A DNA stretch of 64,000 bases, taken from the NCBI RefSeq assembly GCF_029873635.1, contig NC_080423.1:94420191-94484190 (forward strand), in the 5' to 3' direction. The stretch's first letter is position 1; each line of letters begins with the position of its first letter. Made by a program: the position numbers and the translations under genes. The DNA is from Malania oleifera. Taxonomy: Eukaryota > Streptophyta > Magnoliopsida > Santalales > Ximeniaceae. This document shows, piece after piece, positions 4,126 through 12,775 of the stretch. The notes under the pieces were generated by a model. That model was not told the origin of the DNA, made no database searches, and saw only the letters and a program-made list of their open reading frames with translations.

Positions 4126-4979
4126 CAAACAAAGACGGTAAAATAAGTGTTTTTTGTTAATTTTACTCTCTAAACTATGCAGATCATAACTAATGATTTA
4201 TGGGGCCAAAACAATAATGTTATCATATCTTCTGTTGTTGAAAGAGCTGCATATTACACTGAAATTGACGATAGAAATAATAATGTGTAATGATTTAGGC
4301 TGCCAAAATGGGAGAGGCAACATCAACAACACAGTTATCAGGTACTTTCAAGGTTGAAAAGAAGACCCACCACACAAAATACATATTAAGCCAAATTAAA
4401 AGTTTAATGAGAAGTAAGTCCATAAATCTTACAATTGTTCTGGGAAGATTGTAAATTGACAAGAGCATTTTGTCCAGAGAACAGCCATATTTTTCGATGT
4501 TTCATGAGCATCTACCAAGCCCGGCCTAGTGCATTGACGTCTTACCCCTTCAAGAGAATGAAAATAAAACTGGGCAAGAGTAATTTAGGCAGCACCAGAA
4601 CCACCACTATGGCACATATTTATTTAGGTGATAGAGGGGGTTGGCTGGGAGAAAGATAAGCTAACCCCTCCCTTCCTGTCTCTCACGTATAGGTTAGAAT
4701 TTTTACTTCATTCCAGCACCAGAACCACCATCATCATTCATCAACATGAATCATCCCATCATCAGCATGACCCTTTCATAGCCCTTAATCTGCCCACGCA
4801 TGAGCACCTACAGCTCCATCAAGACCCTGCATGCCCAAATCCCCCTTCAGAGACCCTCAAGCTTCCATCCTTCTTCTTCTTCTTCTTCTATGAGAGAGGA
4901 GAGTGAGCAGCCTGCAAAGCAACAGCGTTGATGAGCATGACTATTGCTGCAAATCCTGGCAAAGAAAATTTAGGAACGG
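4126..4979. other. Spacer with (TTC)n tract; left flank of copia A
   Basis: No recognisable gene is present. A (TTC)n microsatellite lies near 4869-4890. The stretch 4640-4790 contains GGGAGAAAGATAAGCT and TCATTCATCAACATGAATCA, which reappear slightly changed at about 10050-10135 on the far side of copia element A. Short ORFs here (4435-4659, 4628-4906) match no family I know. Confidence 0.45.
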
Positions 4980-5163
4980 TGAAAACAGAGTGTAATTTCT
5001 GTATTTCTTGAATTAAATTGTACAGACCAATTTACAGTATTTATAATACAATCGGAAGATCTAAATATGAAAATAATCTCCTAAACAAATCTCTCTTAAT
5101 AATATACAATATATACTTCCCTAAATTACTCCAAGATATAATAGAGTTTGATAGGAAATTTCA
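4980..5163 (-). repeat. 3' LTR of copia A
   Basis: A 184-bp direct repeat of 9251-9434. On + it begins TGAAAACAGA and ends TTTCA. It shares GAATTAAATTGTACAGACCA and CAATCGGAAGATCTAAATAT with its partner. Confidence 0.88.
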
Positions 5164-5431
5164 CCGGGATTTATAATTTTTCCAAGAGTTTCCGTAACCA
5201 CAGTCCTTCACATATCCCTTGTGCAACTGCCCTGAATTCAGCTTCAGCACTGCTTCGAGCCACTACATTCGGTTTTTTGCTCCTCCAAGTTACCAAATTT
5301 CCCCATACAAAGGTGTAATATCCGGCGGTAGACCTTCTATCTTTCATTAATCCTGCCCAATCCGCTTCTGTGAAAATTTATACTTACTTGCTTTCACATT
5401 TCTTGAAGAAGAGTCATTCGCCCGAAGAACC

Positions 5432-6668
5432 CTAGAGGTACCTGAGGATCTTATACACAACATCTAGGTGAGTCTTTTTCGGTGAATGCATGTGTTGACT
5501 TACCACACTTACCGCAAATGTAATGTCGGGTCTGGTATGTGATAGGTAAATTAGTTTACCAACCAATCTCTGATACCTCTCCTTTTCAACTGGTATTCCG
5601 CAATCTTCGACCCTCTTTACTGCTTTAATCGGGGTTTCACTATGTTTGCATCCAAGCATGCTAGTTTCGATTAGGAGATCAAGAATTTACTTTAGCTGAG
5701 AGACACAGATACCCTTTTTTTATCTAGCAACTTCCATTCCCAAGAAGTATCGCATTTGTCCTAGGTCTTTAACTTCAAACTCAGCAGATAGGACTTTCTT
5801 TAATCTTTCCATCTCTACTGTATCATCTCCAGTTAGGATTATATCATCAACATACACTATCAAAATTGTTTTCTTACCACTTTCAGACTGTTGGAAGAAC
5901 ATAGTGTGATTTGATCGCCCTTGTCGATATCCTTGATTCTTTCACTTTCACAAATCTGTTGAACCATGCTATGGGAGATTGCTGGGGTCCATACAAGGAC
6001 TTCTTGAGTTTACATACTCTGTTTTCTTCACCCTTCTTACTGAAACCTGGTGGTATCACCATATAGACTTCTTCTTCTAACTCGCCATTTAGAAATACAT
6101 TCTTAACGTCGAGTTGCTATAGTGGCTAATCTAAGTTAGCTACCAAGGACAGGAGGACCCAAACTGTATTCAATTTTTCCACTGATGCAAATGTCTCTGT
6201 GTAGTCAATGTCATAGGTCTATGTAAACCCTTTTGTAACGAGACTGGCTTTATATTGTTCAACTGTCCCATCAGCTCTATATTTCACTATGAAGAACCAT
6301 TTACAACCAACTGAGTTCTTCCCTCTCGGCAAATTCGTAACGTCCCAAGTTCTATTCTTTTCCAGAGCCCACATTTTTTCCATGACAGCTCCCCTCCATT
6401 TAAGAATCTCCAAGGCTTCTTGGATATTCTTTAGAATTTTTATCCTGTCAAGATTAGAAGTAAAAGCACAATATTCTATAGATAGGCTTTTATAAGACAT
6501 GTATTTTGACCAGGGATATTGATTACATGACCTGGTTTGTTTTCTGATTGTAATGGATAAATTGATGTCATCAGATACAGGCTTATCAAAAGGGAGCTCA
6601 TGACCATCTATTACCTGATCGGGATTGGGTGTGGACTCATGGTTGCTCGGAGCTATCACCGGTTCCAA
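5432..6668 (-). pseudogene. Copia A reverse transcriptase / RNase H region (fossil)
   Basis: The segment carries the copia reverse transcriptase signature: IVYVDDIILTGDD, the copia form of the YVDD catalytic box. Also present are KDLGQMRYFLGMEVAR, WALEKNRTWDVTNLPRGK and KLIYLSHTRPDITFAVSVVS. The order and orientation fit the end of a copia polyprotein. The reading frame is broken in several places. Confidence 0.88.
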
Positions 6669-6773
6669 CTCTCTTGGTCACTTAGGTATGAGATTATCCA
6701 TGTTCTTTGTGTTTGGCTTTCTTGAGTAAACAAGTATTTGTGTTGTTTTGTTTTTCTGCATCTTCCCCTAAAG

Positions 6774-7608
6774 TTAATTGATCTTTTGTACATGACAGGT
6801 CAAGAAATGATGCAATGGTAGACACGGTGTATGGCACGGATTCATCAACATAGAAATCAAAGAACCAATCTTCACTCCATTTCTCCCCCTAAAGAGAGGG
6901 CTTTGAGAAGTAAAGAGTGGTTTCAAAGAATGTGACATCAAGGCTAACAAACAATTTTTTTGTGACAGGATCATAACATTTGTAGCCTTTCTGAGTAGGA
7001 GGGTAACCAATAAAAACGCACTTAAAGGCACCGGGTTCCAATTTATCCCGATTGTGAGCATGAACATGAACAAATGCAATACATCCAAAGATTTTCAGAG
7101 AGAGATTGGAGTGGAGTTGAGTGTTGGGAAACCATTTCTAGAGTTTCTAGAAAGGAGTGGCAAAAGAAAGAACTCGACTAGGCATTCAATTAATGAGATG
7201 TGTAGCTGTTAAAATGACATCGCCCCAAAAATATTTTTTCATATTTGTAGTGAACATCAATGCCCAAGCTACTTCAAGAATATGCCTATTTTTACATTCA
7301 GCAACCCCATTTTGTTGAGGCGTATCCACACAAGAACTTTGATGAACAATTCCATTTTCTAGAAGATAATGTCTCAAGATATCATTGAAATATTCTGTAC
7401 CATTATCAGTACGTAAAATTTGAATGTGAGTTTGAAATTGTGTTTGAATCATGGAGTGGAAACTGGCAAACATATAACAAATTTCAGTTTTATCTCTCAG
7501 CAAGTAAACCCAACAAATACGAATATGATCATTAATAAAAGTAACAAACCATCTCATGTAAGTGTGATTAAGAGAGCGTGAGGGCACCCATAAATCACTG
7601 AAAATCAT
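6774..7608 (-). pseudogene. Copia A integrase region (fossil)
   Basis: The integrase core is recognisable by FSDLWVPS, ILRTDNGTEYFN and TPQQNGVAECKNRHILEVA. These are the D..D/N-G..E blocks of the DDE catalytic fold as seen in copia elements. The more C-terminal part lies at 6774-7088. It sits between the protease region and reverse transcriptase, the order that defines Ty1/copia. Broken. Confidence 0.88.
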
Positions 7609-7875
7609 AGTAAAGGGTCTGGATGTTTTGTATGTGGATTTTGAAAAGGAATTACGCTGGTATTTTGCAAGTTCACAAATTTCACACTGAAATTCAGAAA
7701 ACGTTTTATTTGAAAAAATGGAAGGAAATAAACGTCTTAGATATTAAAATTTTGGATGACCCATCCTAGAATGTCATAACAAAATTTTACTATCACTAGA
7801 AACAGATGCAAAATCACAAATAGTAGTTTTACATTGTTCACTTACATTAGCCTCCTCAAAGTAGTAGAGTCCCTC

Positions 7876-8270
7876 CTACTCCTTAGTACTGCCAATCGTC
7901 TTCCCTGATGATAGGTCCTGAAAAACACAATGAGAGGAAAGAAATTTAACAAAACAATTGAAGTTCTTAGTTAACTGACTAATGGATAGTAAGTTGCAGG
8001 ATAAATTAGGATCATGAAGAACAGACTCTAGTGTGATGGAGTCGGAGAGTCGAATATTCCCTTTGCCTGCGACAGACGAGAGTGATCCATCTACAATTTT
8101 AACTTTCAAATTTCTAGCACATGGTGAATATGATGAGAAAAGATGATAGGCAACAGTCATGTGGTCAAAAACACCAGAATCAATAATCCAAGGAGTTTTG
8201 GATTTAGAGGTCATATTCAAGGCTTGCAAAAAATTACCTCTTTGGGCTAAAGAACCCGAAGAAATATTTG
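7876..8270 (-). pseudogene. Copia A protease region (fossil)
   Basis: It contains TPWIIDSGVFDHMT, the aspartic-protease DSG box of copia elements, followed by LHDPNLSCNLLSISQLTKN, the usual pre-integrase stretch. It is directly preceded, in the same direction, by the end of the RPL6-like block. No gag zinc knuckle is seen between them. Confidence 0.85.
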
Positions 8271-8284
8271 TGGAAGATGAGATA

Positions 8285-8970
8285 ACCTTTTCATCTTGTG
8301 TGTAAAGGCAAGCTTTCAAGTTTGGAACTCCATCAATTGATGCTATCAATGGTGCATCAACAGTCTTCTAATCATCTTTCTTCTACTGCGGGAGTGCTGT
8401 CTTTTCCTCTTTTTTTGGTCTCAAAAAACTCATTTTCCCCTTTCTTTTTCTTCTTTTCTACTTCCATAGCAAAATACTTGTCATCAAACTTTTCTACATT
8501 AATTATAGAAATGTCAACCTTGGTAGAAGTTGCAATCACGTAAGACTGGTTCACGCACCTTAAAGGAACACCATCGACCTTAAATGGGCCAGTAACCAGA
8601 AGCAACCCAAATGGAAGTTGTCTCAAAAAAACAACTCTCTTCCCCTCAAATCTCCCAGCCAGGAGAATCAAAACTATCCCAGGCGTAATGCTCGCTCTGA
8701 GCTTGTTGAATTTGGGCTTGCACTTGTTAGCGAGCAGCTTTTTTACATCGTCGGCAGGGTAGATCTTGGGCGGTTTCTTCACTTGCTTCTGTGGTGCCGG
8801 CTTGGGGTCGTGGCAGGGGAAAACGCCGCCGTGTTTGACCTTGATGACCCAAATACCACACTTGTGATACATCTTGGATCTCAAGAATTTCTGATACCTC
8901 GTACCATTTTTGGGTTCCAGATAGTTTTGGGTTTCCTAGCCGCCGACACCATTGGTGAAACCTTCACGGC
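8285..8970 (-). pseudogene. RPL6: RPL6 (ribosomal protein eL6) copy inside copia A
   Basis: A near full-length copy of the plant 60S ribosomal protein eL6 coding sequence lies in the same orientation as the element, exactly where gag should be. Blocks recognised in order are [115 protein letters not shown] and IASIDGVPNLKACL. They follow eL6 from close to its start to near its C-terminus. No intron-sized gaps are seen, so a reverse-transcribed mRNA is the likely source. Upstream, 8971-9240 contains TTAGGGTTT, a telo-box common in leaders of plant ribosomal protein genes, so some 5' UTR may have come along (inference). It is now a fossil and not a working ribosomal protein gene. Confidence 0.87.
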
Positions 8971-9238
8971 TCTCTGAAGCAGGGCGAGGGTGTCACAAAC
9001 TCATGAGACTCCACCAGCAAGCGATGGGCGGTAGTCGGCGACAGTGACAAAAACTGAAGGTATGAAACCCTAACTCGAGAGGTCTTCTGTATGATGCAGA
9101 GACAGGGCGAATCGCAGGCTGAAACTCTGTTGGACGACCTAATGAAACTCTGTTGGAGGACCTTGTGAGATTCAGAGGTCATCAAACCTCTACTTTGGCC
9201 GGCGGTGTCCGCCATTGACAGTTAGGTTTAATCTCCTA

Positions 9239-9250
9239 GCTCTAATACCA
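9239..9250 (-). promoter_or_regulatory. Primer-binding site of copia A
   Basis: On the minus strand it reads TGGTATTAGAGC, one base off the TGGTATCAGAGC complement of initiator tRNA-Met. It lies immediately inside the 5' LTR. Confidence 0.88.
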
Positions 9251-9434
9251 TGAAAACAGAATATGATTTTTGTATTTCTTGAATTAAATTGTACAGACCA
9301 ATTTACAATATTTATAATACAATCGGAAGATCTAAATATGGAAATAATCACCTAAACAAATCTCTCTTAATAATATACAATATATACTTCCCTAAATAAC
9401 TCCAAGATATTCGAAGATACTCGAGATTTCTACA
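9251..9434 (-). repeat. 5' LTR of copia A
   Basis: Partner of 4980-5163. It starts TGAAAACAGA and ends TCTACA on the + strand. The distal ~28 bp match the other LTR poorly. Confidence 0.85.
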
Positions 9435-10147
9435 AACAGTGATGGATGGTGGCTGGAACTACTCAAGAGCCCTTCGCTACTGCTGGAGAAGAATAACAAG
9501 GAAGAAACGACAGAGCAGAGCATCTCAGTTTCACCTAATCGTTGTGGTGACTAGCAATTGACGGCAGTTTGTCCAATTGTGATCTCCAGCAAATGCAATG
9601 ATACGTCAGTTTCACCTTGCCAAGAGCTCTCTCCAATCAAGTCAGCCAATGTTCAATCATTCGAGAGCATTACGTGAGTCACCTGAACCACTTTGGTAGC
9701 AATGAGAGTAATATTCTAGGCAACCACAAGTTCATGTGGGCCAGAGTCATAAACATAAAAAATAAAAATATATATAGAAAAAAATAGAAAAAAAAAAAAC
9801 CCATCAAGCAACAGCACACATGATACACACATCATTTCATGCATGTATGAAAGGGTATTTCATACATGTATACAAGGGTATTTTCTTTTTATATTAACCA
9901 ATCAACAAGGCAACAGTAAATTCATTTACTCAATAGTTCAAATTACAACACAAATCCCTAGTATAACAAATCTTGGGGAGTAACATAAAAACCCTAGAGA
10001 GGTGGGAGAGAGCAGAACACACAGATTTGGAAAGAAAAAGAGAGGGTGGGTGGGAGAAAGATAAGCTCCCCGCCGACCACCCCTAGGCGCCTTATAATCA
10101 TTCATCAATATGAATCACCCCATCATCATCATAATAACCCTTATCAT
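9435..10147. other. Spacer between copia A and copia D
   Basis: No gene is recognised. The part up to about 9720 may be the continuation of the sequence left of 4980 that copia A split. An A-rich stretch lies near 9760-9800. At about 10050-10135 there is a diverged second copy of the motifs found at 4640-4790. Confidence 0.45.
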
Positions 10148-10391: not shown

Positions 10392-10403
10392 TGGTATCAG
10401 AGC
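10392..10403 (+). promoter_or_regulatory. Primer-binding site of copia D (iMet)
   Basis: TGGTATCAGAGC is an exact match to the complement of the 3' end of plant initiator tRNA-Met, and follows the CA end of the LTR with no gap. Confidence 0.92.
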
Positions 10404-10578
10404 TTGTCGACTGCTAATTTTTTTTCCCTCGAATTTTTTTTGTCTTCTCGGTTTCGAAGGTGTCTCTCATTTCTGTGGCTGTCGTGGGTCTATCCTCTTC
10501 TGGTAATTTTTGGTTCTCTTTTTTTCAGTATTTCTGTGACTGAGTGGCTGTCAGAACAGCTTTCTGTTTCTGTTCCAG

Positions 10579-10850
10579 TGCTTCTCTATCCTTGTAATTC
10601 TCGGCATAGCAGGTTTCTTGGTTTGCAATTTATTTTAGTGCAGGTAGGTCGATCGAAACAGCTTTCTGGTGCTTCTGTGTCCTTGTGATTCTCGGCACAG
10701 CAGGTTTCTTGGTTCGAGAGTTATTTTTTAGTGCAAGTAGGTTGTTCTTGGTTCTTTTTGTTGTTGTTTCTAGTGCTTCTCTGTCCTTGTGATTCTCGGC
10801 ACAGCAGGTTTCTTGGTTCAAGATTTATTTTTTAGTGCAGGCAAGTTGAT
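10579..10850 (+). repeat. Three tandem units in the copia D leader
   Basis: GTGCTTCT begins copies at 10579, 10669 and 10773. Each continues through CCTTGTRATTCTCGGCAYAG, CAGGTTTCTTGGTT and TTTTAGTGCA. The spacing is 90 and 104 bp. They lie between the primer-binding site and gag. Confidence 0.85.
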
Positions 10851-11391
10851 CTTGTTTTTTTTTTTTTTGTACCTGTGTTGATTTATTTTTGGGCTTTTCA
10901 ATTTTCTAATAGTATTTTTCTTTTGGCACAATCTGTTTTTTTTTTTTTTTTTTTTTTTTTGTTTCTCAATTTTCTCCTCTCTTTAGCATGGACTCCACAC
11001 CTGTGTTTGCCAAGTTTACGGCAACAATTATTCTATGTAGGCTTTTCAATTTGAACTTTTCCTGAAGGGAAAAGATCTTTGGGGTCATATTGATGGCACA
11101 GATTGTGCACCCAATCCTACTGAACCCAAGGATCAAGCGGCTTGTCTTTCATGGGCTATGCTTGATGCCAAGGACTCAGCAGCTTGTCCTTCATGGGCTG
11201 TGCTTGATGCTCGGATTATGTCTTGGCTTCTTGGCTCGGTTGAGCCACATATTTTAAGTTCAATGATTCAGTGGCCGTCACTTCAATGCCTCGTCTATCA
11301 TGTTATGATTGTAAAATTATCCCAAGTGAAAGATTGACTACAAAACATAGAGTCCAACTATTAGATATATACAAACATATATCTATATACA

Positions 11392-12032: not shown

Positions 12033-12775
12033 AGGATTAGGTGGTGGAGCTTGAAAGGAGAAAATATAGTAAAATTCAAATATAAAATCATTGAAGAGAG
12101 TAATTGGACAATGGGAGATAAGGTAGATGCAAACACTATGTGGAATAGAATGGCTCACTCAAATTTGAAGATAGCAAAAGAGTTTTTTGGTGAATCCAAA
12201 GAAAGATACTCGGATAGTAAAGAAAGTTGGCAGTGGGATCAAGATGTCCAAAAATCTGTAAAGAAAAAATGAATTTGGAATAAAAATGGCAAAATTGTAG
12301 AAATATAGAAAATCTTGAAAAGTATAAAAAGGAAAAAAAAAAAATATGTAAAATAGGTTATTAGTGAAGCTAAACATAGAGCTTACGATACTTTATATAT
12401 TAGACTAGGAACAAACAAAGAAGAAAGAAATACTTATAAACTTGCAAGATTTAGAAAAAAAAAAAAATGCAAAGATTTAGGTAATATAAAATGTAAAAAA
12501 GATGAGAATGATAATGTCTTAATCAAAGAAGAAGACATAAAAGAGAGGTGGCGAAAATATTTTGATGAGTTGTTTATTGAAAACCAAACTAAAAGCTTCA
12601 GCTTGGAAGTGACAAATGAAGAAAAGACTAAAAACAAGGAGATTTATTTGTAAAATTAAAGTCCTTAAAGTTAAGATGGCTTTAAAAAGGAAAAGTGAGA
12701 AATCTATGGGTCCAAATAACATACAAATTCAAGTTTGGAAATGTTTATGGGGAAAAGGAAGCATATGGTTGACAA
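12033..12775 (+). pseudogene. RTE-type LINE fragment (linker to start of RT)
   Basis: Pieces of an RTE-clade LINE protein run from RWWSLKGENIVKFK and IIEESNWTMGDKVDANTMWN through DENDNVLIKEEDIKERW to KSMGPNNIQIQVWKC. They match the stretch between endonuclease and reverse transcriptase. The same RTE group occurs reversed at 52775-57890. This copy lacks the endonuclease, most of the reverse transcriptase and the 3' tail, and has several frameshifts. Confidence 0.85.

Follow-up and report, generated by a model that had tools for sequence, protein, structure and literature searches.

Host gene pieces, among them RPL6, in the gag position of a copia family of Malania oleifera

That LTR elements take up host genes is well documented (PMC13317346; PMC3726574; PMC2774510; PMC7264820; PMC11963269; PMC5664825). 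It is described as mostly scattered, with the captured genes present in one or few copies (PMC7264820). Maize Bs1 is an LTR element that carries pieces of three host genes (ATPase, xylan endohydrolase and beta-1,3-glucanase) together with a chimeric gene (PMC13317346; PMC7264820). A survey of maize LTR elements counted 425 intact elements with gene fragments, representing a minimum of 189 captures in 81 families, and identified no element that combines fragments of two or more genes (Baucom 2009; PMC2774510). The retroduplicated NLR genes of pepper are spliced mRNA within LTR elements, in some cases with two or three genes in a single element; many of them (about 67% in the case of CNL-G2) are in elements lacking gag or pol (PMC5664825). 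Barley BARE2 is a copia subfamily that is unable to make Gag and whose packaging takes place in BARE1 particles. It was suggested that a later AUG lets the remainder be translated, and no host gene is described in the place of gag (PMC3735527).

The copia family described here shares features with each of these systems. As in Bs1, spliced host cDNA lies in sense inside the element and the chimera moved after capture. Unlike Bs1 as published, the Malania copies keep pol, are numerous and hold 16 different host genes across their gag slots. In contrast to the scattered maize captures of the 2009 survey, many captures are found in one family and at one position, and several elements hold pieces of two or more genes. 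The pepper elements often lack gag or pol, whereas the Malania copies retain pol and have cargo in place of gag. With regard to BARE2, gag-bearing copies with 92-93% LTR identity exist that may act as partners, and here host coding pieces may supply the start. Capture is already known from Bs1; the reuse of the gag slot as a cargo bay is new, and we found no description in the open-licence literature of a single family whose gag slot holds varying host genes.

On the minus strand of the window, that is the whole stretch of 64,000 nucleotides that was analyzed, positions 4980-9434 form a 4,455-bp copia element with the following features:

4975..4979, no strand: target-site duplication, left copy AACGG, 5 bp, read at the element edge
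4980..5139, minus strand: 3' LTR, 160 bp, without its first 24 bp, from LTR comparison
5140..8280, minus strand: pol with protease region, integrase and RT, frameshifted, from ORFs and Pfam
8173-8181: DSG of the protease region, read in the sequence
8281..8303, minus strand: remnant of an earlier captured gene, 3' neighbour of eL6, with the same piece in L022, L020 and L028
8304..8980, minus strand: captured RPL6/eL6 cDNA, from Pfam, PDB and BLAST against the host gene
8981..9238, minus strand: leader with gag-like start, ATG at 9213-9215, from sequence comparison; searched genome-wide
9239..9250, minus strand: primer binding site TGGTATTAGAGC, immediately after the 5' LTR, read in the sequence
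9251..9434, minus strand: 5' LTR, 184 bp, TG...CA ends, from LTR comparison
9435..9439, no strand: target-site duplication, right copy AACAG, 5 bp, read at the element edge

Direct LTRs with TG...CA ends and a 5-bp target duplication (AACGG/AACAG, four of five positions matching) are as expected for Ty1/copia, and the primer site is presumably of copia type. The LTR pair is 95% identical over 160 bp. Pol follows the order protease-integrase-RT, in which a Pol_BBD match lies within 7876-8367 (E 2.6e-17), and the integrase (rve, within 7186-7743, E 1.2e-7) and RT (RVT_2, within 6219-6677, E 6.9e-6) matches are both below the Pfam cut-offs. Neither gag nor a CCHC zinc knuckle was recognized in the window element by Pfam or by reading, as the earlier note had stated; the leader retains only about 18 codons resembling the gag N-terminus of relatives. 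A deletion of about 265 bp has removed the polypurine tract together with 24 bp at the start of the 3' LTR; at a duplicated locus on the same contig (see below) the 3' LTR starts with TGTAGAAATC directly after a purine-rich tract, a stretch that the window copy lacks. With this deletion and frameshifts in eL6 and pol, the window copy is dead.

The earlier note had placed a near full-length RPL6/eL6 gene, in the sense of the element, where gag should be. Both the position between leader and protease and the identity hold: a 187-aa ORF of the window matches Ribosomal_L6e in Pfam (E 6.2e-18) and, in PDB, eL6 chains which we take to be of plants (best E 1.6e-72). The limits given there, 8285..8970, needed correction, as the eL6 block of 677 bp occupies 8304-8980 and 8281-8303 belongs to the older captured piece. 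All four exons of the host RPL6 gene on C11 (L014; handles C and L denote contigs and loci) fit one unbroken stretch of the block with 89%, 92%, 94% and 94% identity, and its three introns are absent, which answers the question raised earlier whether intron positions are crossed without gaps. The block includes 27 nt of 5'UTR and the start codon and ends about 20 codons short of the stop, which is absent. That capture started exactly at the mRNA 5' end is unsupported; motifs upstream in the parent gene, which we take to be TATA-like and telo-box-like, suggest by their position an earlier transcript start. At the 3' joint, parent sequence GCTTACCTTT and the older element piece GATTGCCTTT are alike in 8 of 10 positions. 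This older piece, presumably WDR43/UTP5-like, is more complete in L022, L020, L028 and others. Because the piece at its 3' joint is itself a captured gene, the eL6 capture replaced most of an earlier cargo.

Window sequences were searched against the genome (1.49 Gb). With the eL6 block, four chimeric places were found: the window, C8 (92% over the entire block), C6 and a second place on C7 about 30 kb upstream of the window place. The second C7 chimera (C7:94369859-94395548; L010, L011, L039) is interrupted within eL6 by some 21 kb of other DNA, and the C6 chimera (C6:45361251-45375831; L012, L013) is split by about 9.4 kb. The two C7 places have common flanks beyond the LTRs and a common target duplication AACAG (5/5 between the edges of the duplicated copy), and for this reason they are one insertion that was later segmentally duplicated; independent transpositions are ruled out by the same evidence. 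The C8 chimera has different flanks and the target duplication AATTC/AACTC, and the C6 chimera has different flanks and no clear target duplication. Leader, eL6 and pol thus stand in the same order at three independent loci, so that the chimera transposed after capture. The possibilities that the junctions occur only once, or that the eL6 block has its own poly(A) tail or target duplication, named earlier as grounds for rejection, did not materialize. Distances between the LTRs (K2P) are 0.052 for the window, 0.046 for C8, 0.101 for C6 and 0.087 for the C7 duplicate; the window and its duplicate should agree, and their discrepancy stems from the short LTRs. At 1.3e-8 per site and year, the rate quoted in the accessible part of PMC5664825, the divergence would amount to a few million years. 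In the C6 element, about 500 bp lie between LTR and leader.

For the family survey, the best 40 of 2,077 first-look candidates were scored with a pol query (6900-8320). As matches were ranked by likeness to the window, the 40 represent the window clade only. The slot upstream of pol was read in all 40, over about 0.8-1.5 kb each, and the LTR was not always reached. Cargo was mostly assigned by tblastn with probes or by eye, with Pfam and PDB run on representatives only.

Among these best 40 pol relatives, 36 carry an assignable host gene in the slot, and none of the 40 shows a full gag or a CCHC zinc knuckle in the stretch read; gag remnants are present in three (L023, L069, L073). Ribosomal proteins comprise uS9 (8), eS17 (5), eL6 (3) and uL2 (1), and the other slots hold ArfGAP (5, two with a CCDC124-like insert), SKP1 (3), AAA-like (3), NKAP-like (3), BORCS6-like (2), AP2-like (2) and WDR43-like (1) sequence. 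No host gene was identified in L036, L069, L073 and L075; the L075 slot has ORFs of obscure origin, one of which was checked against Pfam and had no match. The names rest on Pfam or PDB matches of representatives for 29 of the 36 slots, including four copies (BORCS6 and AP2) below the Pfam cut-off, and on recall for seven. Slots reached through LTR or leader matches add eL21 (L045), an RRM piece (L084) and a PTH2-like piece (L087), and a WHEP piece was found in L024; the RRM match is presumably SF3B6-like and the WHEP match presumably GlyRS. Altogether 16 different genes were observed as cargo, of which five encode ribosomal proteins (eL6, eL21, uL2, uS9, eS17), with nine names given by Pfam at cut-off or PDB, three by weak Pfam matches and four by recall. 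The PTH2-like, AP2 and BORCS6-like matches lie below the Pfam cut-offs. AAA-ATPase, WDR43/UTP5, NKAP and CCDC124 are names that we assume, with no Pfam or PDB support for these four cargos. The cargo region of L036 and L020 contains, or is immediately preceded by, other repeats, which in L036 include copia-like integrase reading frames.

Several captures are nested: eL21 lies in NKAP-like, CCDC124-like in ArfGAP, and AAA-like as well as PTH2-like in WDR43-like sequence. The eS17, GlyRS, AAA-like and PTH2-like cargos are internal pieces without a start of their own. Like eL6, uL2, eL21, uS9 and eS17 occur in chimeras at several loci. The eL21 cargo is flanked on both sides by NKAP-like sequence in L045, L092 (C12) and L095 (C1), and in all three it crosses unbroken the one intron of its closest split match on C11 (41918541-41918819 and 41921556-41921741, 92-94%); two more unbroken matches lie on C11 and C10. 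uL2 was read in three element loci: in L094 the frame stays open from a gag remnant across uL2 and on into pol, in L093 it changes once, and in L023 it has a single stop; a fourth match is on C1 (92%). SKP1 has five unbroken matches (89-100%), two of them read (L066, L072) and the other three adjoining leader matches, and a second, more distant group (L029, L058), so that two capture groups stand about 21% apart. An SKP1 relative on C1 has a 12-kb intron at a position where the cargo has none; we dropped this as evidence of intron loss, as another relative (C7, 78%) matches without a break.

The uS9 cargo is permuted, with residues 85-147 preceding 47-86 (L053, L061, L081; typed composite query). 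This order is found near full length at 15 of 48 matches, seven of which were read and lie in elements, and the native order at three places, two on C5 and one on C4. eS17 is near full length at 18 of 31 matches, and the five read are all in elements. Most matches of both (48 and 31) were thus counted from the search alone, with context read for seven and five. In the uS9 cargo (L053:2459-2735 and the 15 near-full matches), it is the stop-less C-terminal half that precedes the N-terminal half. Read from the leader start codon in a second frame, uS9 is long open in several copies, with low N/S.

Host pieces lie between leader and pol and are spliced wherever an intron-bearing host gene is comparable. 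All captures are in sense wherever tested: antisense cargo matches were absent for 29 probes, which had been taken from sense ORFs, and none of 10 long antisense ORFs matched Pfam; one antisense match of a leader probe was seen in L027. These data fit a mechanism we consider very probable, in which gag-less copia elements, mobilized in trans, repeatedly capture host mRNA by template switching. A large non-autonomous family would have lost gag and kept LTRs, primer site, short leader and pol. Its RNA would be packaged by Gag from related gag-bearing copies. During minus-strand synthesis, reverse transcriptase would depart from the element RNA where a short match occurs close to the former gag/pol boundary, copy a co-packaged spliced host mRNA, often back past the start codon, and return to the element leader. 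Chimeras then spread to several loci, as the copies show, and some captures lie inside earlier ones. An mRNA capture giving a non-autonomous chimera had been proposed for eL6 in the earlier note, and the spliced block at several loci bears this out, with the template switch itself a step that we infer.

Less surely, captures open into pol may be favored, because in a gag-less element the host piece would supply start and frame for Pol. We tentatively consider that the gag position serves as a reusable cargo bay, the partner's Gag being exploited and host genes acting as interchangeable translational leaders of pol. Possibly, with the same reserve, the element's own 5' coding part was swapped for stop-less, often start-bearing pieces of abundant mRNAs that were kept if in frame. 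The competing account, also quite possible and equally short of probable, is neutral: gag is dispensable, host cDNA is carried passively, and frame and codon patterns reflect history, not need.

Reading frames speak to both. The median open run upstream of pol spans 39.5 codons when read in the frame of pol, and 4 and 15 codons in the other two frames (56 of 60 slots, four having no pol anchor), and the pol-frame run is the longest in 33 of the 56, which include two spurious anchors, those of L026 and L048, located in the leader; this excess argues against passive carriage. With first probes, partly composite and tallied by hand, 13 of 16 cargo types mostly share, at the 3' joint, the frame of the part that comes next, be it pol or an earlier cargo (45 of 62 copies; binomial P 1e-4 against one third; the uS9 count excludes eS17-bearing slots). 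With single-copy probes measured to pol, 10 of 16 types are in frame by majority with two ties (P 0.016; 33 of 50 copies), a modest excess only, which the neutral account accommodates. The copies are related and decayed, so that these counts and the permutations below are interdependent. At the 5' joints, frames are kept for gag-uL2 (3/3), NKAP-eL21 (3/3), ArfGAP-CCDC124 (2/2), WDR43-PTH2 (1/1), WDR43-AAA (2/2), the uS9 halves (9/11) and leader-NKAP (5/7). Other joints are out of frame, as passive carriage would allow: from the leader, uS9 (0/10 in frame), WDR43 (0/5), eL6 (0/3) and, in part, SKP1 (1/2); further uS9-eS17 (0/5), uS9-GlyRS (0/2), AP2 (0/1) and SF3B6-like on both sides (0/1, with uS9-SF3B6 0/1). 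A leader-to-eL6 count of 2/3 was discarded, as the front part of the probe was out of frame. A preference for captures in frame with pol is likely, and its size depends on the scoring. The eL6-to-pol frame is common to all four copies, in keeping with the eL6-protease fusion that had been suggested, and the copies are now broken.

Codon constraint was assessed as N/S change between copies against a permutation that keeps base and CG/CHG/CHH context, and is expressed as the ratio to neutral. A gag piece gave 0.51 and pol pieces 0.76, 0.89 and 0.74. Values for cargo were 0.65 and 0.57 (uS9), 0.66 (eS17), 0.60 (ArfGAP), 0.60 (AAA-like), 0.60 (CCDC124-like, one pair), 0.53 in the middle and 0.93 in the front of NKAP-like, 0.81 (uL2), 1.11 and 0.79 (eL21 pieces), 0.90 (eL6), 1.01 (BORCS6) and 1.09 (WDR43-like). 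SKP1 gave 0.41 and 0.33 within its groups, one pair each, a low ratio for which host genes may be responsible. For most cargos, shifted frames give a ratio of about 1 or more, except for uS9 +1, the frame of the leader start (0.82 and 0.66), and BORCS6 +2 (0.63). Constraint is thus strongest in the native frame of five cargo types, uS9, eS17, ArfGAP, AAA-like and part of NKAP-like (0.53-0.67 of neutral), which speaks against purely passive carriage. Because native-frame ratios are low and shifted frames are at about 1 or more, several cargos were apparently translated in the course of the family's history, and repeated recapture from host genes could mimic such constraint. eL6 itself is under little constraint (0.89 in its +1 frame, like its own frame), a point on the neutral side, and the front of NKAP-like, BORCS6, WDR43-like and one eL21 piece likewise show little if any.

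Homologous recombination may have moved old 5' modules onto a common pol, so that true captures would be fewer than elements; this is possible, and we lean somewhat against it as the main account. Three loci (L047, L049, L054) carry copia gag, L049 by Pfam (Retrotran_gag_2, E 1.4e-7) and the other two by probe, and relative to the window their LTRs are 92-93% alike and their pol only 75-81%. With a 901-base gag query, 29 of the best 40 of 765 first-look candidates cover nearly all of it at 80-100%. Among cargo elements, a single pol type (about 90%) is combined with two LTR types (88-93% and 76-80%), and a tree of pol from 20 copies has the shape of a star, its inner branches being short. For these two reasons the 5' and 3' parts of family elements have probably recombined, and slot divergence within a cargo type slightly above pol divergence is in line with this. 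At least one capture remains necessary for every distinct cargo and every nested insert, so that recombination adds to repeated capture by template switching and does not take its place. LTR type and pol type are also discordant across L021-L035 with L047, L049 and L054, where one LTR type occurs on two pol types; such LTR/pol discordance points to recombination between element RNAs.

Ribosomal proteins are RNA-binding and basic, and the cargo proteins might serve the element, for instance by standing in for nucleocapsid. Five ribosomal proteins among 16 cargos, the RRM and WHEP pieces and the native-frame constraint of several cargos agree with such a role, which we nevertheless regard as unlikely: SKP1, ArfGAP, BORCS6-like and AAA-like cargos have no such common role, the permuted uS9 does not share the frame of the leader start, and abundance of the mRNAs accounts more simply for the ribosomal proteins. 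That a LINE-type processed RPL6 pseudogene landed in one already integrated copia copy is hardly credible even though the block is spliced and ribosomal-protein retrocopies are common in genomes, since neither a poly(A) tail nor a separate target duplication is present at either edge of the window block, the chimera stands at three loci with different flanks, and 15 other cargo types occupy the same slot; a single processed pseudogene is thereby ruled out.

With capture by template switching as the preferred reading, one family in one genome offers many captures at one position in which intron removal, nesting and later spread can be read. Three questions thereby become testable: which host mRNAs get into the virus-like particles of plants, at which points reverse transcriptase changes template, and whether Pol of a gag-less element depends on a borrowed frame. 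For annotation, matches to ribosomal proteins, SKP1 or ArfGAP may be retroelement cargo.

Two further stretches of the window, both on the plus strand and both without a Pfam match, were noted. At 10392-11340, a copia-like primer site (TGGTATCAGAGC) is followed by repeats and a short ORF, by eye gag-like, with an internal near-duplicate, and an ORF remnant at 12357-12653 resembles, by eye, a LINE reverse transcriptase.
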